Assembly: GCF_000203815.1 (NCBI RefSeq)
Contig: NW_004457737.1
Location: 2,170,001 to 2,234,000, forward strand
Length of the DNA: 64,000 nt
Direction: 5' to 3'
Source of the DNA: Cavenderia fasciculata
Lineage: Eukaryota; Evosea; Eumycetozoa; Acytosteliales; Cavenderiaceae
The first letter of the stretch is position 1; the number at the start of each line of letters is the position of its first letter. Both the position numbers and the translations under genes were made by a program. This document shows positions 81-53,845 of the stretch, one piece after another. The notes below the pieces were generated by a model, which was not told the DNA's origin, ran no database searches, and saw nothing but the letters and a program-made list of their open reading frames with translations.

Positions 81-1730
81 ATGAATAAATTATTAATAGT
101 ATTATTAGCAGCTTGTTTGTTCTTGGCCGCAATCAATGCACACCCAGGACACAGCCATCACCACGATTCAGATGATGAAGAGGAAGAGACCGACGTCAAG
201 TCACATGTCATGAACCTCAACGAAGAGAACTTTGCTCAAACCATTGCCGAACACGACGTCGCCCTCGTCATGTTCTTTGCCCCATGGTGTGGACATTGCA
301 AGAACCTCAAGCCACACTTTGCCGAAGCATCCAACAAGTTGGCCAGCAACGAAAAGATTGCTCTCGCCAAGGTTGACTGTACCGTCGAAGAGACCCTCTG
401 TCAACTCAACAAGGTCAAGCATTACCCAACCCTCGTCATCTACAACAATGGTGTTCCAGAACCATGGGAAGGTGAAAGAACTGCCAAGGGTATTGAAGAA
501 TCTGTCTTGGCGTAAGAGAAAAAGAAAAGAAAGAAAAGAGATAGATTCAATTAGATTAGTTATTAACTTAACCTTTTGTTTCATTTTAGTGAATTATTAC
601 CACCAGTTACAAGCATTTCAAGTGAAGAAGAATTAATCAAGTTTAATGAAGCCAACCCAGTTTCAGTTGTTGGATTCTTTGACAATGATCATGACGATAG
701 ATACGCCCAATTCAAGACCATTGTTGGTAAGCTCAAGAAGTTTGCCAAGTTTGGTTCGGTCGTCAACAAGGAGTTTGCCAGCAAGTATGCCAGCAAGTCA
801 CCATCGGTTGTCGTCTTTAAGAAGGATCAAGACAAGAGCGAATTTGCCAACGCCGACTTTGAAGTCGAAGAGTTGGTCAAGTTTATCCGTTACTCTATCC
901 TCCCATTGGTCGGTGAAATCAACGGTCAAACCTACAAAAAGTACGACGGAGCCGGTCTCCCACTCGTCTACCTCTTTATCAACCCAGCCGACGCCGACGC
1001 CAAGGAAGCTGTCCTCGCCGCCGCCACCCCCGTCGCCAAAAAGGCCCTCGGAAAGGCTATCTTTTGTTGGGTCGATCACTCCAAGTACCCACAACAAGCC
1101 AAGTACATGGGCTTGAGTGGTGATGTTGTCCCATCGGCTGCCATCGAAGTTGCTGCCAAGGCACAAAAGTTCCTCAAGTCTGAGAGCGAAGAGTTCAACC
1201 TCGACACATTTGACAAGTTTATCGGCGAGTTTTTGGCCGACAAGCTCGAACCATTTGTCAAGAGTGAACCAATCCCAGAAGACAACAACGGACCCGTCAA
1301 GGTTGTCGTTGCCAAGACCTACAATGAAATCGTTCTCGACACTACAAAGGATGTCTTGGTCGAGTTTTATGCCCCATGGTGTGGTCACTGCAAGAACCTC
1401 GAACCAATCTACAAGCAACTCGGTGAACACTTTGCCACCACCGCAAAGTCTGTCGTCATTGCCAAGATTGATGCCACCGCCAACGATGTCCCATCTGAAT
1501 TGGGTATCACTGGTTTCCCAACCATCCTCTACTTCCGTGCCAACGACAAGACCCCACTCTCCTTTGAAGGTCATCGTGATTTTGACTCTCTTTCCAACTT
1601 TGTCTCTTCCAATGCATCTGTTGAAAAGCATGCTGAAACCCAAGAAACCACTCAAGAACAAGAACCAGTCAAAACTACTACCACTGAAGAAACTGCTGAA
1701 TCAAAACCATCTCATCATGATGAACTTTAA
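81..1730 (+). CDS. pdi2: Protein disulfide isomerase, ER
   Basis: Two exons, 81-511 and 590-1730, join in phase to 523 residues; the intron runs GTAAGA to TTTTAG. The protein starts with a hydrophobic signal peptide (about residues 1-20) followed by a His/acidic stretch. It has thioredoxin-type active sites CGHC near residue 72 and again near residue 430, and it ends in HDEL, the ER retrieval signal. This is the a-b-b'-a' layout of classical PDI, which forms and shuffles disulfides in secreted proteins in the ER lumen. Length and order match the family (about 500 residues). Codons are strongly C-ending, as expected for an abundant protein. Family assignment is certain; the symbol is chosen by length and domain order compared with the D. 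discoideum paralogues and is less certain. Confidence 0.95.
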
Positions 1731-26518: not shown

Positions 26519-29500
26519 TTATTCAATTAACCATTTCAAATCATTTGAACTACATAAATCACAATCTCTTTCTTTAGCCATTTTCCAATTATCAGATTGG
26601 TTATTATTCTTTTCACGTAGCTGTACAATTTTCTCTTCAATTGTATTCTTGATGATAAAACGATGAATATAACATTCCTTTTGTTGACCAAATCGATGGA
26701 TACGGTTGATGGCTTGTGCTTCGACAGCAGGATTCAATAATGGTTCGACAATGAATACATGAGTGGCTTCGATAATATTTAGACCATTGGCACCTCTTTT
26801 AGTTGGTAAAAGTAGTACTTGAATGGTTGGATCTTTTCTAAACAATGCCACAGATGCTTGGAATTGTTGTCCACCCTTATCACCTCTTTCAAACACAATT
26901 CCATTCTCTGCCAATGCCCTAGATACAATTTCCAATACCTCTGACCATTGTGAAAAAAGAATTACTTTTTGTAATGGATCTTTATCAAAAATACAAAGTA
27001 ATGTCAATACAACAGATTCAATCTTTGTACCATATGATCCTTTTACTATAATATTTGTTATCTCTTCTTCTTCTTGTTGATTCTCTTGACCATTATCATT
27101 ATTATTATTATTATTATTTTCATCTTTGTTTGTTGTTGTTGTTCCATTACTAATATAAGATAATTCTTCAATATTGACTCTAGTTCTACAAATTGGGCAT
27201 TGAATTGTTTTAGCATTTGGTACTCTTTCAATCATAAACATGACGCATTCATAACAAAAAGAGTGTCCACAAAACATCAATACCACTTCAGATCCAGCAT
27301 GTCCAAGTTTCTCTTGACATACTGCACAAATCTCTGGTTCTTCTTCTTCTTCCTCCTCTGTAGTAGCAGTTGTAGTTGTTGTTGAAGTAGTTGTAGTACT
27401 AGTACTAGTACTAGTAATAATAGAATCCTTATCAATCATTTCATTTGATTTTAATAATTCTTGATTCTTTTTTTTCTTTTCAGAATCAACCTTTGATTTT
27501 GATTTCTTTAGATTGCGTAGATAATTTAATTGACTGTACAAGTTTTTAAAGTTATCATGGGTATTCTTTTTTTGATTGACCAAACGCTCGATAAATGAAT
27601 CCAATTCAATTGGTCTAATCGTAAAACTTTCTTCATATTCATCCAATATTTCACCATGATGTCTTAATCTAAATCTATTTTGAGCACTATTCACCTCATC
27701 ATAAGAATTTAATAAATCTTTGGATGATGAATATAAATCTCTTGCACTTCTAATTTCCTTTTTCATTGCATCAAATAATTTAATATGTTCCGTTCCTTCA
27801 TCAGATAAATCAGAATCAACAGATTTAACTAAACGAGCCAATAATTTAAGAGTAATTTCAACCTCTGAATCTACTATACTAGTTGTTTTTTCATCGACCG
27901 TAAGAAAGGTTAAATCAAATGAATCATCATCTTGACGACCTTGTTGTTTTCTCAGTCTATCCATATCTTCTGCCAAACTAGTTCTGTTTCTTGATCTTTT
28001 TGTTGCAGCTTGTCGTTCACGATCTTGTGTCTCGTCATCGTCGCCGCCACCAATACCATCGCCACCACCCATATTTTTAGATGAATACATTCTTTCTTGA
28101 TAGGCAATCATGTAGCCTCTGACTGTACAATGGCTGCATTGTCCACCACCCTTTTTCGTTCGAATGGTTCGACAGTACCCACAATGAATGGATTTGAGTA
28201 CTTGTTCATTGGTAAACTCTGTCTTTGCAATCGACTGCATATTCTTTATCATTTTAAGACGATCTTGGAATAAATCTTGGATATAGGTTGACAAGATAAA
28301 CGTCAATCCATTGAGATCTCTGTATCGGTTGAATACTATGTGTTTGGCGTTTTTAAACACCTGTGGTTGTGTCAATTCAGATGTAATCTTTTGCATCAAC
28401 TTTGACTTTTCATCAGAAGTGCTAGAGAGTGCTTCGAGTGCTTCCGACCACCACTCTCGTTTTTTCGAACGTTTATCATAATCGTCGAGCATTGTTTCCA
28501 CCTTGGTATGTGATTCCTGGTAGACGTCCAGGTCTTTGGTTACCTCTGCCACACGTCTGACCTGTTGTGTACGTTTAATCTCCTCTGCTTCGGCTGCATA
28601 GTCGTCGTCACGGGTCGTATGTATCGTCAGTTTTTTGAGTGACACGAGGTACCCCAGTTGATACAGTGAGTGCAGTTGATAGAACCAATCGATCTTGTAC
28701 AAGTGCTGGTTGCTCTCGAGAAGGTTCAGCGACTCTCTATAGAGCGTCGCAGCATCGTCAAATTGGTTGCGAATGATGTGCGTCGCAGCCAAGCAGTTGA
28801 TGCAATACACCAAGTCACGCTGTGCGTTTTTACACTCGACTGACGCATTTTCAATGAGACGGTCGAGTAATTCATCCATTGTCATTGTATTCTTTTGTAG
28901 GTTTCGGGCATTACCAAACTCCTTGTTACCAACTTGTGGATGTTGAGATATCTTTCTCAATATCAAAAGGGGGTGCAAGATCTTTGTAATCTCTGAACTG
29001 CTCGCAGTTGTCTGACCACGTGTATATTTGTTAAAGAGTAGACGTGCCTGCTGGCTGCACTCTTCTGCCATCTTTTTATAGTATACTCGCTCGACCACTG
29101 AAAAGTTTAATAGTTTGGTATCCTTGTCATGTTGAGGTGGCAGTCCCAGTTCGTCAGCCACTCGTTCCTTTGTATTTCGCAGCATGATCGATTTGGCAAG
29201 ACGTGGAAAGTACTCCTTATTATTGTTTCCACCATTATTGTTGTAATTATTGGCAATAAAATGTTTCCACCAAAATTTCGAATCAAATGGCTCGAAATGA
29301 AGAAACTGAACCAGTGCAAAGAGATCGTCTAGTCCACGTTGGATGATTGTGCCAGACAATCCCCAGCTATGTACACGAGACAGAGCAGTGGCCATCAACA
29401 ACGATTTCGATGATGTCGACTCGACCATTTGCACTTCGTCAAGACACACCCTCCACCAGCGTACCGACAACAATGGGCTTTTGGGTGCTTCCAACTTTGA

Positions 29501-30985
29501 GAATCGTAACTTTGTATGTGTGCTAGGTGGATCAATACAATGTGACTCACCACTCAGCACATCATACGTCGTCAACACAATATCATACGATGCCAAGTCC
29601 CATGGTCCAACATTATCCTTGTAAATACCAGAATACTCGTACACTTTTAATCCTTTGGTATGTTTTTCAATCTCTTCTTTCCATTGTGCAAAAATGGGTG
29701 ATGGTGCCACAATCAATGTTGTCTTGCATTCTATCATTGTGTTTCTTGACCAATATCTATTATTATTATTATTTTGATTATTTTGATTATTTTGTTTTTG
29801 ATTTCTTCTATCAAGATAAGCTTGATATAATTTTCGTTTAGTGTCACTACAATAGTTGCAAAAGTAAAGGTCTTTACTTGATTTGTATCTTGTACCAACA
29901 CATGAAACATTTTGCCATCTTTCACAACTATCGCATTGTACCCACAGACCAAACCCATGATCTGCTTCATTTCTTTGACAAATACATGCTATAATATCAC
30001 CATTTTGTGATATATATTCCATAATGGCAGCTGGTTTTTCTGGTTCCTCTTCAGAGTCTGACTCTAATTTCATTTCCTCTTTATCATCAATTTGTTTTGG
30101 TAAATCCTTTTGATTGTTTTGATTGGCCAATAATAATCCCAAAAACTCTACTGTTTTACCAATACCTGGTTCATCAGCCAAGATACCTCCACGAATAGGT
30201 ACTTTAGATGTTAAAAGAACAGGTGATCGTGACAGTCTTCCAGTATATTCGTTAAAATAAAATACAACTGATGATGATTGGTTGTCATCAGTTTGAATTG
30301 ATATTCTTCTCCAAAATGGATGAATCGATTGATCTTTTGTTGTTGTTGGTGCAGATGATGAGATATCAATATCTGGTGATAATTCTCTATTGAGCATCCA
30401 AGAAACAGTTTTTAATTGATATTTCTTTAATGTTGATAACATTCCTTTACCACTCAACTCTTGTTGACTATACTCTTGTAGATCGTCAGTTGGAACAATT
30501 TGATCATAAATATGTTTTGGATTAAATTCTTCCACTTGATTCAACTCTTTTGTTAAATCATCATTTAATATCATCATCATTTCTTCATCTTGTAATTCAT
30601 CTTCCACTACTTCAAATTGGTCAATATCCATTGATGACATAATGGATGATGGTTGAGTAGTAGTAGTAGTACTGGTTGTAGAAGTTGAAGTGGTAGAGGT
30701 TGTTGAAGTTTCCAAATTTAAATTGGAGGATGATTGTAATGAAGGAGTTGCAGATAATGAAGAAGTGGATGGAGTAGACATATTATCAATATCAATTGGA
30801 TCATCATGACCATCCAAAGATTGAGTTTGTGATTGATCTACTACCGATTCATTTCTTAGGAAATAATTGACAATACTTTTAAATGCCTTGTTTTGTTTCT
30901 TTTGATTACCAACTTGACATGGATCTTCAATCTCTTCAAATGACTTTTCAATTAAATATACTTGAATTGACATATTTAAATGTTG

Positions 30986-31036
<51 letters not shown>

Positions 31037-32034
31037 TTGATTTTGATTGTTATAGGTAAATAAACATTGTATAAAATGATTATTATAAAGGTATAATATA
31101 TCATTAATCACTTGATCTTTGCATTGAATGATAACATTTTCAAAGAGTCTATTGTTATTATATTGATTTACAATAAATCCCATAGTACTTCTTTCCTGTG
31201 TTTGCTCAGGATTAATATAAAGATATAGATTTTGATTATAATTAACTATAGTACAATAAAATAAATTTAGTTAATAATGATATCATTATAGTTATAATCA
31301 AAATAAAACAACATACAATTATTTGGAATAGGATCATGAGAGTAAATAGTGATATCACCAATTAAAATTGAACTATCTGGTTTGGTCAATGGTTCATTTG
31401 GTTTGACAATATAGCCAGTCAATAACTTTCTACTTGTTAATTTCCATTTAGCTGTTTTATCATTTAAATTGAATGGTGATGTTGATGATCTCTTTAACTT
31501 TGTTTTACTAGTAGTAGTTGTTTGTTGTTTCTTCTTTGTAGTAGGAGGAGTAGTAGTATTACTACTTTCATCTTCCAAATCAATAATTTCAATATCATTA
31601 TTTGTTGTAGATGTTGATGTTGATGATGTTGTAACTTGTCGTTGTTGTTCAACAACATCTTCAATATCTCTACTACTCGATTGATGTCTTTTTAAAAGTG
31701 TAACCTCTTCCTCTTCTTCTTCATCCTCTACCATCCCCACTTGTTGTTGTGGTTGTACATCATTTCCTTGCAACACCTCTTCTTCATCATCTTGATTATC
31801 AAGAGTAGGCTTGACTTTCTTTTGACTAGTCCAACTTTGTTGAGCTTGTTTGGTGATGGTCAACTTTTTAGGAGGAGCTGATTTTCTCTTTCTACGATCA
31901 CTCGATGATGAGGGTGTAGTATCATTGTTTGTATGATCACCATTACTCTGTTGTTGTGTCTCTACATTACTATTTTCTTTTAGTTCTTTCTCTTTCTCTT
32001 GTTGATTATTATTATATTCTATGTCTGCTTCCAT
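26519..32034 (-). CDS. shprh: SHPRH, SNF2-PHD-RING ubiquitin ligase
   Basis: Exon 32034-31317 and exon 31245-26519 join in phase to about 1814 residues. An acidic, Gln/Ser/Thr-rich N-terminus precedes a split SNF2 helicase. Walker A is GGILADEPGIGKT (about residue 590). A PHD finger follows (CICQRNEADHG...CDSCERW, about 660), then the DEVQ box (about 840) in place of DEAH. A long insert precedes a RING (CAVCQEKLG...CGHSFC...CPICRTRV, about 1550) and the C-terminal helicase lobe with INRIHRFGQQKE. This order is diagnostic of SHPRH/Rad5-like enzymes that ubiquitinate PCNA during replication stress. The length is near the human 1683. The start is the first ATG (MEADIEY); the in-frame triplets before it contain none. 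Confidence 0.93.
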
Positions 32035-32570
32035 TGAAAGAGATATAGATTCACGCAAATCGAGTCGTGTGTGAACAAATTAAATTAAATATTTGTTTTT
32101 TACTTTTTTGTGCTGCGGAAAAGAAATAAATTAAAATATTAATATAAATAAATAATAAAGGAAATAGAATAGTTGATGGGATTGACCAATGTCAATATTG
32201 ATTTAATTTATCATTACCCATTGGTAATTAATAATAATAATATAGGGGGAGGGTTGGTTTATTATGGTATTTTGTTGATTATTATACAATGGTGATAGAT
32301 TGTTGGTTGACGGTTCTTACAATGTTTAAAGATACGATTTGATTTGATATCAAACTCTTTTAATTATACTGATAGTGATATAATCTAATAAAGATATTTC
32401 GAAATAAATATCAAATCTCTACTTGTATCAATAATTGCCAAACAAATCTGGTCAACAACTTTCTTCTTTTTTTTTTTCTTGGTTCTTATTACTACTACTA
32501 CAATGATGTTGTTATTATCTGTTATTATTATTATTATTGCTACTGGATGGGAAAAAAGTCATTGATCTAA
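32035..32570. other. Intergenic spacer
   Basis: SHPRH promoter and the 3' flank of the next gene. The DNA is AT-rich with a G-rich spot GGGGGAGGG at 32245-32253. No gene is seen. Confidence 0.5.
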
Positions 32571-33586
32571 TTAACAATCATTATTTTGTCCACTTGAATT
32601 GTTGTCAAAATTATGGGATGACGGGGGAGATGATGACGAAGAGGATGATGATTGAATCATTTCAATATCAGCAGTGCTGCTGGGTGGGCAATTGCCCATT
32701 AACTCATCAACCAAATTAGAGGACGATGATGGTTTTGTGGTGGGTGTTGTCGCAGCAGAGGATGATGAAGTGACAGTTCCCAGTGTTGAGCTGTTTGATG
32801 ATGAAGAAGATGATGGAGCCGATTCTAAATGTACACTACCAATGGGGATAGGAAGAGGTTCAGAAGGGAGTGGTAGGGGTATGCCAGAGAGGGGTTGTGG
32901 TTTGAATAGACTCAGTTTAGATGATTCTTCGAGGAATACTGATCGGTGAAGGTGATGATGACTCGTTGACATCAACATGGGCGAGCCAATAGGTGTGCTG
33001 TTACCCGATACAGTTGTGCTTCCATTGCTCTCAGTGTCGCTCGAATTTGAAAAACCAGATATAAATGGGTCTCCAATCGAAGGAGATGACGTTAATGACG
33101 ATGAAGATGATGTCAAATTGCTTCTTCCACTACCAATACTACTGTTACTTTCGCCCAATAAACTTTTAAGTTTGAATCCCAATTTAAATGCTTCTGCTAC
33201 TCTTTTTTCCATATTACTACTGTTGATGTTGTTGTTGTTGTTGCTGCTGTTATTATCAAATGATAATGATGGTGAAATGATTGGTGATAATCTGTTACTA
33301 CTATTGTCATATTCATCCTCTTCAGGATTAAAACTGGGGTATCGAGAGAGTGGTTGACGGAACGATGCTGACCTGCTACTGATACCATGGCCTCGTAGAC
33401 TATTACTGCCGCTACTACTACTATGTGCATGTCGTCGCTTCAAAGAGTGAAACGATGAAGTTATATCCAATGGTTTGGATGGTAACAATTCCTCACTGTT
33501 TCTTCTAATATGCTTTGCAACATGAATTGGATTATCATTCCAATTTAAATTATTATTATTATTATCTTGTGTTGTTGTTGTTGAAG

Positions 33587-33620
<34 letters not shown>

Positions 33621-36018
33621 GGATGAGGATGATGGTAACAATGTCATTGAGTGTTTTAATGAAGAGGAAGAAGAGGATGAAGATTGTGATTGATGATCAG
33701 GAAATAAACTTGATTGTGGTGGTTTGATGCTAAGGGTTATATCTTTTTCCTTTTCCATTTCTCTTGCAGTACCGCTACTTGTAGCACCACCCTCTTCCCT
33801 CGATTTATAGAGTTGAACAAATTGTTTTGGCGTCAATGCTCGAACAGGCTTGTATGTTACATTGGTAGTGCGTCCATTTTGATGGACACTCCCATTTATG
33901 CTGTTAGTGTTGCCCGACGCCAACTGCACAAGTTGTGACTGAGCAGTGTTGTTGGAGAGCGATAGGTTGATGAATTTGACCAAACTGGCAATCTTTTTTT
34001 GTGACCGTTCTCTCTTTTCTTCATTGTGTATAAAACTGTTAAATGAATTGATAAAATAGTCGTCTTTGTTTGATTCATCTTGGTATTGTGGCCATACAAA
34101 AAAGTGTTGTGTGTTTTGTCCTCCACCACCACCAACACTACTCTTTCCAGTAATGATTTGATTCGCTCTTTCATTTGATGATTCAGTCGATGATGTTGAT
34201 GATGATGAGTTGGTTTCACCACTACCACCATTACTACTAACTTGACCATTCATATTAAATTTAAAATAAAACATTCTGTCATTTGTAAATTGTTTATCAA
34301 CTTTTAATAAATCAACTTCATTATATGATAATACATATGACTAAGGTAAAGTAGAGAAAGAAAGAAGAAAGATATATATATTAGATATATAGATGATTAT
34401 TAAGATATCCAATATGATTCTACATACATTATCAATTTTCATTGTTGATAGATTTCTCCAAATCAAATGGAAATGCACTATTCCCACTTTTAAAAGTGCA
34501 ATGACACCCTTTTGTGGAAATGGTACAACTAGATTATTTTTATATTCACATTTACCTGCTGGAAATTCCATTAATATTTTCTAGAATTGATAATATTAGT
34601 TAGTTTGTACCAAAAGTAAGATATATTTGTTTTTTGTCAATGTACATACACTATTTTTGTACAAAAACAACATTTCTCTATGTGCATTTAAATGTAGAGA
34701 TGGTTGTTGTGATGGAGGTGGTGATGTTGATGATGATGATGTTGAAGTTGTTGTCGTAGTAGTTGTTAAACTTTTACTATTACTGTTATTTTTATATTTT
34801 TCTTGATTCTCTATTTGACTATCATCAACCATATTTGATTCAGTATCCATTTTATCAAAATGCTTATTATTAGAAGGAGGAGGGGGAGGAGGTGGAATAT
34901 CAACAGGTTTTCTTTGTATGGTTAGATCTAGTACAATATTGTATTTTGATTTTGGAGAATAATATCTAGACTCTATTGCTGACTTTTTACATATACCATT
35001 GCTCACAATCGATGGACCACGACCAACACTACCTGGCGTTGGTACCAGTTGATGTTGATGATGGTGATGTTTAGTGGTTTCCTTTGGTAGTGGGAACGTT
35101 CTTCTATAGACAATGATCCAATGTAATTTTAAAAGATTTTGTACAATCAATGTATTCATACCATTAGCCTCAATAAAATGTGTATAACTAATAAAGATAA
35201 AGTTTAATTAATATCTAATTTAATTCATTTGTTTGTTCTATATAATTATAAATACCAAGGATTTTCAAATATATTTGCCGATTGATACAAAGCATTCATA
35301 ACTTTCAAATCACTATCACCAAAATTAATGATTTCCAATGATATTTGATTAGAGAACAAATCCAATCCTTCCTTTTTCATGTCGTCTTCACTACAATAAA
35401 TAAGAGAGAGTAACTTGATTAGTATCTTTTACCTCTTTTGTCTAGAAAATTCTACAAACATACGTTGCTCTGGTTGGACTTCCGGAAAAGATGATCAACT
35501 TTTTGATATAGTTGGGAGAGTCTCTTTTCTTGAACAAAAGATGAGCCAATGTTAGAGAATCTACTATATTACAATTATGACCCAAACCAATTTTCTTTAA
35601 ACTTGAACAAGATGTATTCTCTTTTGATAAAACACTATGTACTTTTGGGCTGTGATTGAAAGGTGAAAGGTGAAAGAGAGAGAGAAGAGTATAAGTGACT
35701 CCATCTTGTTATATATATATACTAAAATAACATACTTTTCTCCAGCCATTGTTACGACATAGATCGTAAAGGGTAGACTCGCAGTCAACAAACAATTGAG
35801 TTGTTGAACCACTGCCATACACTGTGATGTCCAACGATCTGTTGGTGAATAATCTCCATTGATTGTGAATTTAGAGTTGTCCAAACTAAAGATATAGATA
35901 GATCATAGATAGATAGATAGATAGTAGATGTATGATATCATTATTAATTTGTCTTCTTGGTCAATAATAATAACCAAACATACCATATAGTGATTATAAT
36001 CTCTTCATTCTTTTTCAT
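32571..36018 (-). CDS. Rpn10-type vWA fused to Rpn13-type Pru domain
   Basis: Seven minus-strand exons (36018-35984, 35885-35736, 35649-35464, 35390-35256, 35187-34650, 34580-34428, 34340-32571) all join in phase to 988 residues. Residues 1-190 form an Rpn10-like vWA domain: ITICLDNSKFTINGDYSP, VVTMAGENPKVHSVLS, KKLIIFSGSP, ISLEIINFGD and HFIEANGMNTL align in order with Rpn10. After a Pro/Thr linker, about 350-500 form a Pru (PH-like) domain as in Rpn13: MEFPAGKCEYKNNLVVPF, KGVIALLKVGIVHFHLIW, MFYFKFN, and after a low-complexity insert HFFVWPQYQ. The remainder is Ser-rich and disordered. I see no UIM and no clear DEUBAD domain. Both parents are separate 26S proteasome ubiquitin receptors. Whether this protein is a proteasome subunit or a divergent paralogue is unknown. 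Confidence 0.85.
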
Positions 36019-45915: not shown

Positions 45916-46072
45916 CTCTGTCCAGACATGCTTTTCAAAACAGAATTCATTTGATTTCCAACACAACAACAACAAACAAATAATTATATAATTAATATCC
46001 ATCATTTAATCATATAATTATTGTTTTATAACACTACCAACTGTAACACCAACAACAAAAACAACAAAAACA

Positions 46073-48590
46073 ATGTATTTACAACGTTTCTATTTTGCAT
46101 TTATTGCATTACTCTTACTCTCTGGCGGAGCATATGCCAGAACAGTCAAACTCGACAAATGCAGCAGCACATGTAGATTGGACTCAATGTTGGCTTTGGT
46201 CGGCGGTGCACTCACCCGTGCCGACGATGTAGTCATCCAAGGAACTCAAAGCGCCATTTATAATATTGCACAACCAATCACCTGTCGTGCCTTGTCCATC
46301 GCCACTGGTACCGTCAATCTCAACTCCAATGTTAATATCCTCGGCGACCTCCGTGTCGACGCTGGAGCCAAGCTCGTCATCAATGGTGCTCTCTCTGCCA
46401 CCGGTCTCATCAAGGTCGATGGTGAATTAATCGTCCTCGGTGGTATCTCCTCGATCGGAAACATGGCCTGTGCCGGTAAGGTACTCGTCCAAGGTGGTAC
46501 CCTCAACATCAATGGTTTGCTCTTTGCCGACACCTCTGCCTTGACTGTCGCCGGTGGTATCGTCAAACACTCTGGAAACTGTGCCTACAACACCTTGCCA
46601 ATCGTCAAGGGAACCGGTCAAATCTTTGTCAACACTGGTGCCAACATTGACCTCAACAAGGGTATCAAGTGTCTCGACCAATCCATCCTCAACCTCGCTG
46701 CCAACGCCAAGGTCAACCTCAACGCTGACTCGCAATTCCTCACCCCAATCATCGTCAATGCTGGTGCCAACGTTCTCGTCAACAAGGGTAAATGCGACTT
46801 TACTGGTGGTATCAAGGGTACTGCTGGTTCCATCTTGACCATCCTCAACGGTGCTGCCAACGTTGCCGGTGACCTCAACACCTGTCACAAGATCGACCTC
46901 ACTGGTGCCGGTTCACTCAATGTCAACGCCGGTGCTCTCACCTGTGCCGACCTCAAGGCCATCGCCACCTCCAAGATCAACCTCTCTGGCAACGGTGCCC
47001 TCCTTCTCGACGCCAACGCCAACGTTGTCGGTAAGATCAACCTTTCTGACCTCTCCAACATCGTCGTAAAGGCCGATTGTGATGCCAAGATCTTGGGTGG
47101 TATGACCTGCTCTGGAAACTCTGTCGTCCAAGTCCTCGACAACGCCAAGCTCGACCTCGCCAAGGACTGTCACTTTGTCAACCCACTTACCATCGGTTCG
47201 CAATCCACCGTCACCCTCACCAACGGTATCACCAACTGTGCCAAGGGTATCAACTCCAAGCCAGACTCGACCTTTATCATTGACGACAAGGCCACCTGCA
47301 ATATTGCCCACAACTCCAACGTCGGTGACATCAAGGTCAACGCCAACGGTGCTCTCAACGTCAACGGAGGTATCACCAACGTCAACGGTATCTTCCACAC
47401 TGCCGACAAGTCAACTGCCGCCATTACCAACGCCATCCTCAACTTAAAGAGCGACGCTGAAATCAACAGCAAGTTGCTTGCCCTCGCCAACTCCAAGATC
47501 TCCCTCGAAGGTCTTACCAACCTCAACGCCGGTATCCAAGCCGACACCACTGCCAAGATCGACATTGCCAAGACCTGTAACATCAATGCCGCCTCTACCC
47601 TCAACTGTCACACCAACCTCAATGCCAACGCCATCCTCAACATGAACGGTAACAAGGTCACCCACTCTTGCGGAAAGATCACCACTGCCCCAACCTCTAC
47701 CCTCAACCTCAACAAGGGTTGCAACCTCAACATCGTCGGAGCTGCTGATATCAACGGTGCCACCAAGCTTTGCGATGGTTCCAACATTAAGATCCATGGT
47801 GTTGCCAATATTAACAGTGGTATCCAAACCGTCGGAAATATCCAATCTATTGTCAATGGTAAATAATAATTAATAATTAATCATTCATAATAATATTCAT
47901 TCTAACATACTTTTTTCTTTTTTTCTTTTTCTTTGACTTATTTTAGTTGCCAAGGCTGGTACTTGCAAGCTTGCATCTGATACCTCAATCAACGGTAAGA
48001 TTTTGATTGATGCCGGAGGTAACCTCATCGTCAACGGTAAATGTGCTGTCAATGACCTCCAAAACGCTGGAAAGGTTATCGTCACCAAGCCAATCACCAT
48101 CACTGGTGACAAGTTCATCCACGCCAACGCTGATGCCTCTATTGATTTGAACGGTGATGGTATGATCTCTTGTAAGGAAATCAACTTTGCCAAGGGTGCC
48201 CTCAACGGTGTCGGTAAGATGGCCTGTACCAAGTGTACTTTTGGTAACAACATCGATGCCAACCTCAACGTCCAAGGTGATGTCGTCATCCAACCAACTG
48301 CCAACCTCATTGCCCGTGTCCACGCCGATGCCACCGGTGCCATCCAAGCCGTCCCAGTCATCATTGCCTCTGGTGCTGCCAACATTGCCGGTAACGTAAA
48401 CATCATCTGTGACGCTGCCACCAAGATTGCTGCTGGTCACGTCATCAAGCTCGTCTCTGCCGCCAACGTCTCTGGTAACCTCAACGTCGTTGCCAACGCC
48501 AGTGCTGCTGCCAATGCCAACATTGCTGCCAATGCCTGGAACATGGTATACCCCAAGTGTGCATGTGAATGTTACCTCCAAAAGAAGTAA
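46073..48590 (+). CDS. Secreted beta-solenoid protein, highly expressed
   Basis: Exons 46073-47858 and 47947-48590 join in phase (GTAAAT...TTTTAG) to 809 residues. A signal peptide (ending SGGAYA) and KLDKCSSTCRLDSM precede about 38 irregular repeats of roughly 20 residues with the flavour N-x-hydrophobic-x-hydrophobic-x-G-G, for example LVINGALSATGLIKVDGELI, and Cys at recurrent positions. It ends in a Cys cluster (CACECYLQKK). The protein is nearly free of charged clusters and rich in Asn, Ala and Ile, which strongly suggests a right-handed beta-helix. Codons are almost entirely C-ending (AAC, ATC, GTC, AAG, GCC), much more than in neighbouring genes, so expression should be very high. It may be a matrix, sheath or spore-coat component. 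I recognise no named family. Confidence 0.85.
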
Positions 48591-48878
48591 ACAACAACAA
48601 CAAGTTAGTTTGTTACTTACTTACTCTTTTCGTTCGTGTCTAATTCATATCTCTTTCATCTTATTCATATTACTCCTCCTTTTAATATATGTATATTTAT
48701 TTATATGTATTTTATCAACAATATATTTACAACATCCAACAAACAAACAAACAAACAAATTAAATAAATTAAATTCTTTTCGTTTTGAAACATTACATCT
48801 TCAGCATTCGTCTTTAGCATTAAAACTATTTATATTAATTTAGATTTATCAAGTTCAATAGACAAGACAAGACAAGAT

Positions 48879-50537
48879 ATGTCAGATACTAACAACGATA
48901 TATATCATGAAGATCATTATCAATATCAATACAATAATAATAGCAATAGTTTAAATACTGATTCAAATAATAATAATAGTTATAATCCTTCAGACCAACA
49001 ACAACAACAACAACAATCATATAATAATCATAACCAACAACCTCAACAACAACAATACCAACCTCAACAATATAACAACAATAATAACAATAGTTATAAT
49101 GTAGAACAACCATATAATAATAACAATAATTATAGAGGAAGAGGAGGAGGAGGAGGTTATAATAACTATAATAATAATAATAGAAGAGATTATAATAATA
49201 ATGATAATAATAGAAGAGATTATAACAATGATCATAATAATAGAGGTGGTGGTGGATATAGAGGAGGAGGTAGAGGAGGAGGTAGAGGAAGAGGAGGTGG
49301 AGGTGGTAATAATAGATATAATCCATATGGCAATAACCAACAACAAAATCATCACCAACATCAATATCAACAAAACAACAATAATGAACCATATGGTACA
49401 ATTAACAAATCGATATCAGAACATTATGGACAAAGAACCAATATACCATTACATATTAGAGATCAAAGTCGTATATTGAATATGAAGAATACAAATAATT
49501 GGGTCAAATCTGTGATGATTCAAAAGTATGTCAATCGAGATGACAGTGTATTTGATATCTGTGGTGGTAAATTAGGAGATCTTCAAAAATGGATAAAGGC
49601 ATCAATCTCTACTCTTTACATTGCCGACGTTGCTTTGGATTCTTTAAAGGATGGAGTAGAACGTCACAATGAAAGAATCAAAAACATTCAGTTCAACACC
49701 ACCTTTATCTGTTGTGATTGTTTCTCTCCAAAACTACTTCAAGCTATTCCTCCAACCGTCAAGTTTGATCTTGTCAGCTGTCAATTTGCCATTCATTATT
49801 CTTTCCGTTCAGAGGAGAGTGTACGTAATTTCCTTCAAAATGTTTCCTCTGTCTTGAAAGATGGTGGTTATTTTATTGGTAATTTCCCAGACTCTCAATA
49901 TATAGTGTAAGTTGATCACAAATCAAAATATATATATATATTTATATATGTAATACTGATTGGACTGTTTATTTATTAATTTAGTGAAAAATGTAAAGAA
50001 AACAATTCAAACAAATTTGGAAATTCAGTATTTAATATTAAATTTAAAGAGGATGAACCAAAGTTTGAAGAATTTGGGTGCGCATACCAATTCTTTTTAG
50101 AGGATGCCATTGATGGCTTGGATGAATATTTGGTCGATCCAACGGTATTGTCGAGAGTTGCCAAGGAATACGATTTGGAGATGGTACAGGATGAAGATTT
50201 CCATACTTTTATTGAAAGAGAAAGAGATGCCTCTGACGGTAACAAATCTCTTTACCATAAAATGCATTGTCTCAATGATCAAGGTACCATTTCCAAAGAG
50301 GAATGGGAAGCATTAAGAATTTACAGAGTTTTTGCTTTCAAAAAACTTAAAAAAGAACAACAACAAGATGATCAAACTTCAACATCGACAAATAATGATA
50401 ATAATAATAATAATAATGATAATGGTGATGGCGATGATAAAAAAGATAATCAAAATAATAATAATAATTATCAAAATAGAAGAAATAGAAATAGAATTCC
50501 ATTTATCAACATCAACGATATAATAATAATAAATTAA
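48879..50537 (+). CDS. rnmt: mRNA cap guanine-N7 methyltransferase
   Basis: Exons 48879-49906 and 49985-50537 join in phase (GTAAGT...TTTAG) to 526 residues. The N-terminal 165 residues are Asn/Gln-rich with RGG-type repeats, often RNA-binding. The catalytic domain follows: ISEHYGQR, NWVKSVMIQKYV, the AdoMet loop VFDICGGKLGDLQKW, CDCFSPKLLQ, and FDLVSCQFAIHYSF, the cap-methyltransferase signature. After the splice come YQFFLEDAIDGLDEYLVDP and the family-typical end EEWEALRIYRVFAF. The enzyme methylates the cap guanine N7 on nascent mRNA in the nucleus. A polar Asn/Asp tail closes the protein. The first ATG is used. Confidence 0.92.
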
Positions 50538-51925: not shown

Positions 51926-52512
51926 TTAAGGATATTGTTCGGTGTGTTGTTGTTGTTGTTGATGGTGATGATGAAGTGGAAACTGTAATCCTTTTTTGAA
52001 TTGTTGGTGTTGGTTTTGACGTGGAAGAATACGACGACGGGCATTGGTGAACCAATTATTGATTTGACTGGAAGAGAGTAGGGTCTTTTGGGAGAGATCT
52101 ACCTTTTCATCTTCGGTTGGGTATGGATTGTTGTTGTGTTGGTACAACCAATTTTTGAGAATTGATGTGGCTTCTCCTGGTAGTTTGCCTCGTTTCTTTT
52201 TCAGCATCTGTGCTGCTGATTGTTGTTGTTGTTGTTGTTGCTGGTCGTTGCTTATTGGACTGCCAACGCAGCTGCTGCTTGCCTTTGATTTGTCTGGTGA
52301 TAGTACGGATTCGGTTGTTTGGTCATCTTCGAATGAATTGTCAGGTGATAAATAGTTGTTGGAATTGTCAACACCATCAGATTGTTGTTGTTGTTGTTGT
52401 TGAAAGTGATCTTGATCAAGATCAATTACTTCTGATGGAATCAATTTCTTATTTTCATTTGGTGTAAATTGATAAAAGACAAATTGTTTACTATTATTAT
52501 TATTATTCATCA

Positions 52513-52545
<33 letters not shown>

Positions 52546-53845
52546 GTATGTTTGATATTGATTGTGGAGGTGAATTGGGTTGTGATAGATATGACTGTGG
52601 AGGTGGTGGAGGTGATGGGATTAATTGGTTCGGTTGATTTGGTTGTTGATATGGTCTGGATGATGATGATGATGATGGTTGATATTGATGGAAAACTTTT
52701 GGATTTCTATTAATAGAATCATCCCTGTGAATTTTTAATTGATGTTGTTGTTGTTGTTGTTGTTGAAATTGTTGATGTTGTTGTTGGAGTTTCATTAATT
52801 GGAATGGGTTTGGAGCTATTGGTTGGTATTGAGCAGTTGGAGAAGAGGAGGGTACTACACCAGAGATTGGTTTTGATTTTGTATTGGCAAGAGTAGTACA
52901 ATCAATTGAAGGAGGAGGGGTTGACGATCTTGATGATTTGGGCTGATGATGTGCATGTTGATCAGTGAGTGTCATGAGCATCTGTGTAACCCATTCAGTA
53001 TTTGGATTTCCACCATTTGTAGTAGAACTACTAGAAGAGGATTGAGTAGACTGCAATGGTGACGGACAAGGAGATGGACCAACTGCCTTATGATATTTAA
53101 ATGGTCGAGAGGTCTCTTCCTCATCTTGAGAGTCTGGAAAATCATCAAAATCGGCATCACTAAAATCAGAACAAATAAATTGATCTCTTGACGATTGACT
53201 ACTATAACTCTGAACCTCTGTATCTGGTGTAATCAATGAACTAATTGAATATTCTAAAATAAACAAATAATAATAATTAGTTAATAAATGAAACAACAAT
53301 CATCAACTCCAAAAAATAAATAAATAATTAAATCCATTACCCTTTGAAAGTGAAGGAACTTTTTGTGAATCCTTATCCTTGTTTTTAAATAATCTATACA
53401 TATTCATTTCAATTGATTCAATTTCATCTTGAATTGATGCCAAAAATAATTTATATTCTAAAGTGACCGAAATTAATAAATATTATTATTATTTGTTATT
53501 TGTTATTTGTTATTATTAATTTTACATACCATATTTTGTCATTGTTGATGGATGATTTAATTTTAGACCCATATCATTTACCAATTGTTGAGCAGTATTA
53601 AAATATTCTGCCCCATCCCAATAATTTAGAGTTGGTGATGGAGTAGGAGACGACGAAGTAGATGATGTCCTACTACTGTGAATCAAAGATTGTACGGGTT
53701 CATGAGAGTGTTGGGTGTATCTCCCTTGTTGGTGAATATCCGTTGGATATCTATAATAATTTTGAATACTTCCTTTGGAATGATGATGATGATGAGATGG
53801 TTGCATTGGCAATTCTCTATTTGGCCAAGTATTAAAAGACGACAT
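51926..53845 (-). CDS. TALE-class homeobox transcription factor
   Basis: Exons 53845-53530, 53457-53341 and 53253-51926 join in phase to 586 residues. The first two exons encode a His/Ser-rich start, a helical segment AQQLVNDMGLKLNHPSTMTK and EYKLFLASIQDEIESIEMNM, which may be a dimer or cofactor interface. Exon 3 has acidic, Gln- and Asn-rich linkers and, near the C-terminus, a homeodomain: GEATSILKNWLYQHNNNPYP, then DLSQKTLLSSSQINNWFTNA and RRRI. The three extra residues PYP between helices 1 and 2 mark the TALE class (Pbx/Knox/Meis). It is a nuclear DNA-binding regulator, probably developmental. An unusually long upstream spacer (2.4 kb) fits complex regulation. D. discoideum hbx numbering cannot be assigned from here. 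Confidence 0.9.

Follow-up and report, generated by a model that had tools for sequence, protein, structure and literature searches.

A 64,000-nucleotide stretch of the Cavenderia fasciculata genome (contig NW_004457737.1, positions 2,170,001 to 2,234,000; hereafter the window, whose numbering we use) carries on its minus strand, at 36018-32571, a gene that joins an Rpn10-type vWA domain and an Rpn13-type Pru domain in a single chain of 988 residues. The product is an unusual combination of the docking domains of two known, separate ubiquitin receptors of the proteasome, each of which also has an ordinary gene in this genome; the chimera gene and its two domains are almost certainly real. On comparison of its residues with those of Rpn10 and Rpn13, we tentatively propose that it could be a paralogue blind to ubiquitin, docked on the 19S particle via its Pru domain and perhaps spanning both receptor seats. 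If so, it would provide a natural test of docking once ubiquitin reading is gone, and of whether cells make specialised proteasomes via receptor swapping.

Two proteasome docking domains in one chain

Judged by homology, residues 10-200 are a diverged Rpn10-type vWA domain. The Pfam family PF13519 (VWA_2) matches residues 10-118 with E 9e-6 and 26.7 bits when the whole protein is scanned, just below the curated cut-off of 27, and with E 2.3e-6 and 28.6 bits, above that cut-off, when the first 303 residues are scanned alone. Compared with all PDB chains, residues 1-200 retrieve ten distinct sequences at E <= 10, with values from 2e-17 to 5e-9. Nine of them bear the name Rpn10, PSMD4 or S5a. The remaining one, 8amz_W, is labelled only 'VWFA domain-containing protein', and we take it to be a plant Rpn10. 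The assignment of the N-terminus to Rpn10, made in an original prediction from the nucleotide sequence, is borne out by these matches. A vWA of the TFIIH p44 type was also considered and set aside: five such sequences came up behind Rpn10 with the ordinary Rpn10 as query, none with the chimera. An NCBIfam scan of the vWA part gave no match.

The middle segment had been read as an Rpn13-type Pru domain, with a profile search proposed as the check. This search agrees: PF04683 matches residues 351-432 (E 6.9e-10; 39.7 bits, where the cut-off is 25) over profile positions 1-84 of 102. Among PDB chains, ADRM1 accounts for eight of the ten sequences found with the Pru stretch at E <= 10 (E 1e-4 to 3e-3), the other two being UFL1 at E ~1. 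The last strand of the domain, HFFVWPQ, is paired with human RLFFWMQ, by alignment only, across an insert of ~45 residues, close to the ~47 first estimated; a second Pru piece reported by HMMER gives the same pairing, yet is not significant alone. A TRM13 match at residues 329-404 (E 0.041) lies below its Pfam cut-off and was set aside.

Two hallmark modules of the ordinary receptors were not detected. The ubiquitin-interacting motif (UIM, PF02809) is not listed for the chimera at E <= 10, as had been noticed earlier by eye, while the same scan finds two stretches in the ordinary Rpn10; the single UIM-core-like match of the chimera falls inside the vWA domain. Likewise, DEUBAD (PF16550) is not found at E <= 10, and the same scan finds it in the ordinary Rpn13 with E 2.3e-17. 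In the tail encoded by exon 7 no Pfam family exceeds its cut-off, the best, DUF5715 (E 0.036), being set aside as below it, and a PADLOC scan of the exon 7 frame gave no match.

Like Rpn10/PSMD4/S5a, the lid-associated ubiquitin receptor of the 26S proteasome, the chimera starts with a vWA domain bearing DxS, GSP and INFG, and it has two intron positions in common with the Rpn10 gene of its own genome. It differs in lacking a detected UIM, in keeping 26 of 71 invariant vWA residues and in continuing into a Pru domain and a tail of ~450 residues. With Rpn13/ADRM1, the Pru receptor on Rpn2, it shares a PF04683 domain that has V38, P40, V85, W108 and Q110 (human numbering); it departs from Rpn13 in the undetected DEUBAD, in changes at L56, F76, M31, C88 and E111, in the insert, and in the vWA that precedes Pru. 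Budding-yeast Rpn13 is likewise described as lacking DEUBAD (PMC7344625). The reduced Rpn10 of Giardia (PMC4352536) resembles the chimera as a protist Rpn10 with a non-standard vWA; unlike the chimera, it has a ubiquitin-binding UIM, its abstract mentions no Pru, and it is that species' Rpn10 and not an extra chimera. The architecture had been thought undescribed, and we found no vWA-Pru fusion in the titles and abstract openings of open-licence papers on such fusions or on dictyostelid Rpn10 and Rpn13, no open-licence paper naming both Pfam accessions, and no mention in the available text of PMC4453063 or PMC2691004, which is weak evidence that such a protein is unpublished.

The genome was searched for relatives; its assembly totals 31.0 Mb over 21 contigs, in line with the ~30 Mb reported for most dictyostelids (PMC5006619). 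A contig other than that of the window, C5, carries both an ordinary Rpn10 of 351 residues (vWA E 2.8e-23), which has two UIM stretches, and an ordinary Rpn13 (Pru E 1.7e-23, with the DEUBAD given above); splice sites in both models were picked by eye. As both are present, the chimera is a third gene, an extra paralogue and not a replacement. Family searches gave one Pru candidate, the ordinary Rpn13, and 20 vWA rows. The ordinary Rpn10 protein as query retrieved only its own gene, and the ordinary Rpn13 protein retrieved its gene and six weak matches with E from 4e-4 to 0.4, most of which fall in the Thr/Ser-rich stretch separating the two Rpn13 domains. A further weak match lies at C17:833757-834041 (E 0.22). 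Since neither the family searches nor these protein queries recovered the chimera gene itself, the count is at least one ordinary gene of each kind, and diverged copies could have escaped.

A separate observation concerns the ordinary Rpn13 model (L031 2678-2218, minus strand, contig C5), in which a 461-base intron separates Pru from DEUBAD. If this intron were retained, the protein would end within three codons, giving a predicted Pru-only Rpn13 without DEUBAD.

Searches of a protein database returned nothing at E <= 10 for the whole chain (7979 candidates scored), for residues 1-200 (361) or for residues 1-200 of a 474-residue piece (278). Ordinary Rpn10s should have fallen within the length range of the last search, yet none came up; either eukaryote proteins are scarce in the database or the shared-word filter was too strict for a query as diverged as this one, and for the same reason these negatives are silent on other dictyostelids. 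In viral contigs, 33 and 97 stretches fit a pattern and none was confirmed.

Gene structure and origin of the fusion

When the exons are rejoined, the coordinates, strand, seven exons, reading phase and 988 residues originally predicted prove correct. The elements are, in window positions:

Exon 1, 35984..36018, minus strand: start codon and MKKNEEIIITI, with a GT donor; joins exon 2 within the Cys codon preceding the DNS motif
Intron 1, 35886..35983, minus strand: phase 2; codon and phase identical to intron 1 of the ordinary Rpn10 of this genome
Exon 2, 35736..35885, minus strand: Rpn10-type vWA with the DNS motif
Exon 3, 35464..35649, minus strand: vWA with the GSP motif
Exon 4, 35256..35390, minus strand: vWA with the IINFG motif
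Intron 4, 35188..35255, minus strand: phase 2; aligned codon and phase identical to intron 4 of the ordinary Rpn10
Exon 5, 34650..35187, minus strand: last part of the vWA, as far as about residue 200, followed by the linker up to residue 348; the predicted frame has the best codon score
Intron 5, 34581..34649, minus strand: phase 0; sole junction of the vWA part with the Pru part
Exon 6, 34428..34580, minus strand: first half of Pru, residues 349-399
Intron 6, 34341..34427, minus strand: phase 0; within Pru
Exon 7, 32571..34340, minus strand: second half of Pru, in which the insert of ~45 residues (~431-476) precedes HFFVWPQ; a Ser/Asn-rich tail of ~450 residues follows, up to the stop codon

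All six introns begin with GT and end with AG, measure 68-98 bases and, in five cases, start with GTATGT. Intron 5 had been given as 34650-34580; the intron is there, and those two positions are the flanking exon bases, the true span being 34649-34581. GC content is 0.23-0.40 in exons and 0.13-0.31 in introns; exons are mostly the richer, but the ranges overlap, intron 2 exceeding exons 1, 4 and 6. Seven other long open reading frames (ORFs) of the window served to train a codon model, which was applied to eight coding stretches, two of them overlapping, with exon 1 left unscored. The predicted frame ranked first of six in seven of the eight; exon 6 came near a tie (0.034 in the predicted frame against 0.082 on the opposite strand), and every frame of all six introns scored negative. 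Exon 7 by itself sits in an open frame of 589 codons. At 33589-33634 it contains a trinucleotide repeated ~15 times, GAT when read on the plus strand and encoding poly-Ser; the repeat is possibly variable in length.

Is this one gene or two? Introns 1-4 and 6 each interrupt an aligned domain, and homology thereby supports these joins. Intron 5 is the only junction outside a domain alignment, and a Met is present just inside the Pru start, so that a vWA gene and an adjacent Pru gene might have been falsely joined there. A reading frame continued past exon 5, however, would first meet a stop at 34598-34596, and the earliest ATG of Pru is at 34571; two genes on one strand would thus be 24 bases apart, stop to start. 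No AATAAA occurs on the gene strand between 36018 and 32571, and of its four ATTAAA (35224, 35208, 34308 and 33660) none falls in the interval that separates exon 5 from the start of Pru. The splice sites and phase of intron 5 fit as well, and the linker codons score as coding in frame. One fusion gene is far more likely, as originally claimed, and two adjacent genes are very improbable. It is also distinctly unlikely that the locus is a decaying or unexpressed pseudogene whose divergence reflects neutral drift after fusion: both domains are indeed strongly diverged, but 988 codons run without stop or frameshift across six intact introns, codon use is of the coding type and the fold motifs are retained.

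The introns also inform us on how the chimera may have arisen. The vWA of the ordinary Rpn10 has four introns, two of which coincide with introns 1 and 4 of the chimera in aligned codon and phase. The shared intron 1 splits the Cys codon preceding the DNS motif, and the shared intron 4 splits the aligned codon following Glu/Asn-Pro; both are in phase 2. By a hand calculation that assumes uniform placement, two of four exact coincidences in ~570 bases have a chance of ~3e-4. Because two vWA introns match in codon and phase, an intron-bearing Rpn10 gene, and not a retrocopy, is the most likely ancestor of the vWA half. On the Pru side, intron 5 of the chimera (phase 0) lies four codons ahead of the Pru Glu-Phe, and the ordinary Rpn13 is likewise interrupted by a phase 0 intron, 11 codons ahead of the same Glu-Phe. 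The natural guess is a fusion by joining through introns, in which the vWA part of a duplicated Rpn10 gene, its introns retained, would have been linked, in phase 0, to a set of Pru exons.

Ubiquitin contacts, docking contacts and a possible role

In human Rpn13, ubiquitin contacts are reported for S55, L56, I75, F76, D79 and F98, and M31, C88 and E111 are described as critical for Rpn2 (PMC11546751); our list of Rpn2 contacts also draws on PMC5494190. At the six ubiquitin positions the chimera has V, H, L, S, E and F, only F98 being identical to human. The ordinary Rpn13 of this genome has a gap at S55 and L, I, F, E and F at the remaining five. From these substitutions, the chimera has probably lost the ability to read ubiquitin. 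On the Rpn2 side, five of 16 contact positions are human-identical (V38, P40, V85, W108 and Q110), and five are as in the ordinary Rpn13 (V85, Met at V93, Tyr at V95, W108 and Q110). The docking tail itself is present: Rpn2 of this genome ends in PEPKTPQPFEFTD, which retains the Phe reported as strictly conserved in the human dock (PMC4605517) and, by our own alignment, an aromatic residue at the Y950 position. We regard docking of the Pru domain on Rpn2 as an even call. In both comparisons the identity of the residues counts, not the fractions: L56 and F76 have been replaced, and W108, V38 and V85 persist.

The chimera, in the role that we tentatively propose, would not read ubiquitin. Its Pru would grip the C-terminal tail of Rpn2 in competition with Rpn13, and its vWA would occupy the Rpn10 seat or its vicinity. 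The original prediction had suggested that one chain could bridge the two sites, and the geometry permits this. The linker from the end of the vWA (~193-200) to the start of Pru (349) comprises ~155 residues, and a hand estimate puts the ends of a disordered chain of this size very roughly 85-110 Å apart, compared with a reported Rpn10-Rpn13 distance of ~100 Å on the 19S particle (PMC7344625). Spanning both seats is thus geometrically possible, and one molecule could fill both. The vWA, on the other hand, is without 45 of the 71 Rpn10-invariant residues, and docking of both ends appears rather doubtful. Were both seats occupied, the proteasome would be left without the usual Rpn10 UIMs and without the Rpn13-Uch37 module, and the Ser/Asn-rich tail would hang off the particle as a regulatory or partner-binding arm.

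Work on Arabidopsis gives some guidance on the vWA end. Replacing the DxS Asp by Ala is reported to have kept Rpn10 out of 26S proteasomes, and a vWA-only Rpn10 is reported to have rescued a mutant, with expression detected not in all lines (PMC11546751); docking without UIMs can thus be functional. The DxS Asp is kept in the chimera, where D14 aligns with the Asp of three ordinary Rpn10s (from this genome, human and a plant).

Several observations weigh against the proposed role. The vWA of the chimera is 21-25% identical to each of these three Rpn10s, which are 51-53% identical to one another. Of 71 residues that do not vary among the three, the chimera retains only 26, which belong mostly to fold motifs (DNS, GSP, I-NFG); of the invariant H-R-Q-K in the HRQ-K stretch only the Arg is left. 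With so many invariant residues lost, the contacts of the Rpn10 seat may be gone too. As for Pru, seven of the 16 Rpn2 positions match human or the ordinary Rpn13 and nine match neither. C88 and E111, both kept in the ordinary Rpn13, are replaced by Phe and Tyr, and M31 by Cys. Retention is not clearly higher on the Rpn2 face (7/16) than on the ubiquitin face (2/6). Moreover, the ubiquitin-contact residues F67 and F88 of Arabidopsis, which by numbering correspond to human F76 and F98, are reported to be required for RPN2 binding as well (PMC11546751), so that the change of F76 to Ser could weaken Rpn2 docking too. The alignment near L56 and F76 could shift by 1-2 residues, the W108 strand is placed over a long insert, and a single-sequence structure prediction of the Pru stretch reached a mean pLDDT of 42, an unusable model. 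Finally, mice without all Rpn10 UIMs are reported to die as embryos (PMC7344625), and UIMs are thus not dispensable everywhere.

How else might a real fusion be explained? The vWA may have left the proteasome and become a repurposed scaffold that recruits another client, with Pru alone bringing this client to Rpn2. Such a division of labour would fit the loss of 45 Rpn10-invariant residues from a domain whose fold motifs remain, and a Pru domain nearer to normal divergence: it is 22-23% identical to two ordinary Prus that share 32% with each other, and retains 16 of the 36 residues common to them. Yet the gene retains the DxS Asp and two of the Rpn10 introns, the repurposed vWA has no known partner, and the Rpn2 dock of Pru is itself kept only in part; we consider this explanation unlikely. 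A role away from the proteasome as a receptor or shuttle for ubiquitin, bound by diverged Pru loops or by the vWA, appears less probable again. The F98 equivalent is kept, D79 is Glu as in the ordinary Rpn13, and the vWA of yeast Rpn10 is itself reported to bind ubiquitin (PMC5059453). Against it stand the failure to find a UIM, His and Ser at the L56 and F76 positions and an insert of ~45 residues soon after the F98 position, and the shuttle or receptor role offered in the original prediction is weakened accordingly; the chimera may still act as a decoy or competitor. At the far end of the proposal of a ubiquitin-blind paralogue lies a dedicated alternative 19S subunit that would clamp the Rpn10 seat and the Rpn2 tail, displace both receptors and define a ubiquitin-blind class of 26S proteasomes. 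We hold this to be unlikely; if true, it perhaps serves one stage of the social-amoeba life cycle.

Neighbouring genes in the window

Directly downstream of the chimera lies another ubiquitin-pathway gene, an SHPRH-like gene at 26522-32079 on the minus strand. In the part scanned with Pfam (26522-31270), SNF2 and both SHPRH helical domains are above their cut-offs, a RING is just above one RING cut-off and a PHD-like stretch is below its cut-off; taking the ORF at 31267-32079 as the first part of this gene is a guess. The block 46001-48000 stands out with a GC content of 0.49, compared with 0.27-0.42 in the other 2-kb blocks, and contains a 618-codon ORF without a Pfam match at E <= 0.001. Three further ORFs carry Pfam domains: a KN-type homeodomain at 51929-53299 (minus strand), an mRNA cap (guanine-N7) methyltransferase domain at 48789-49907 (plus strand), and two thioredoxin-type domains at 567-1727 (plus strand), in a product that we label protein disulfide isomerase-like.

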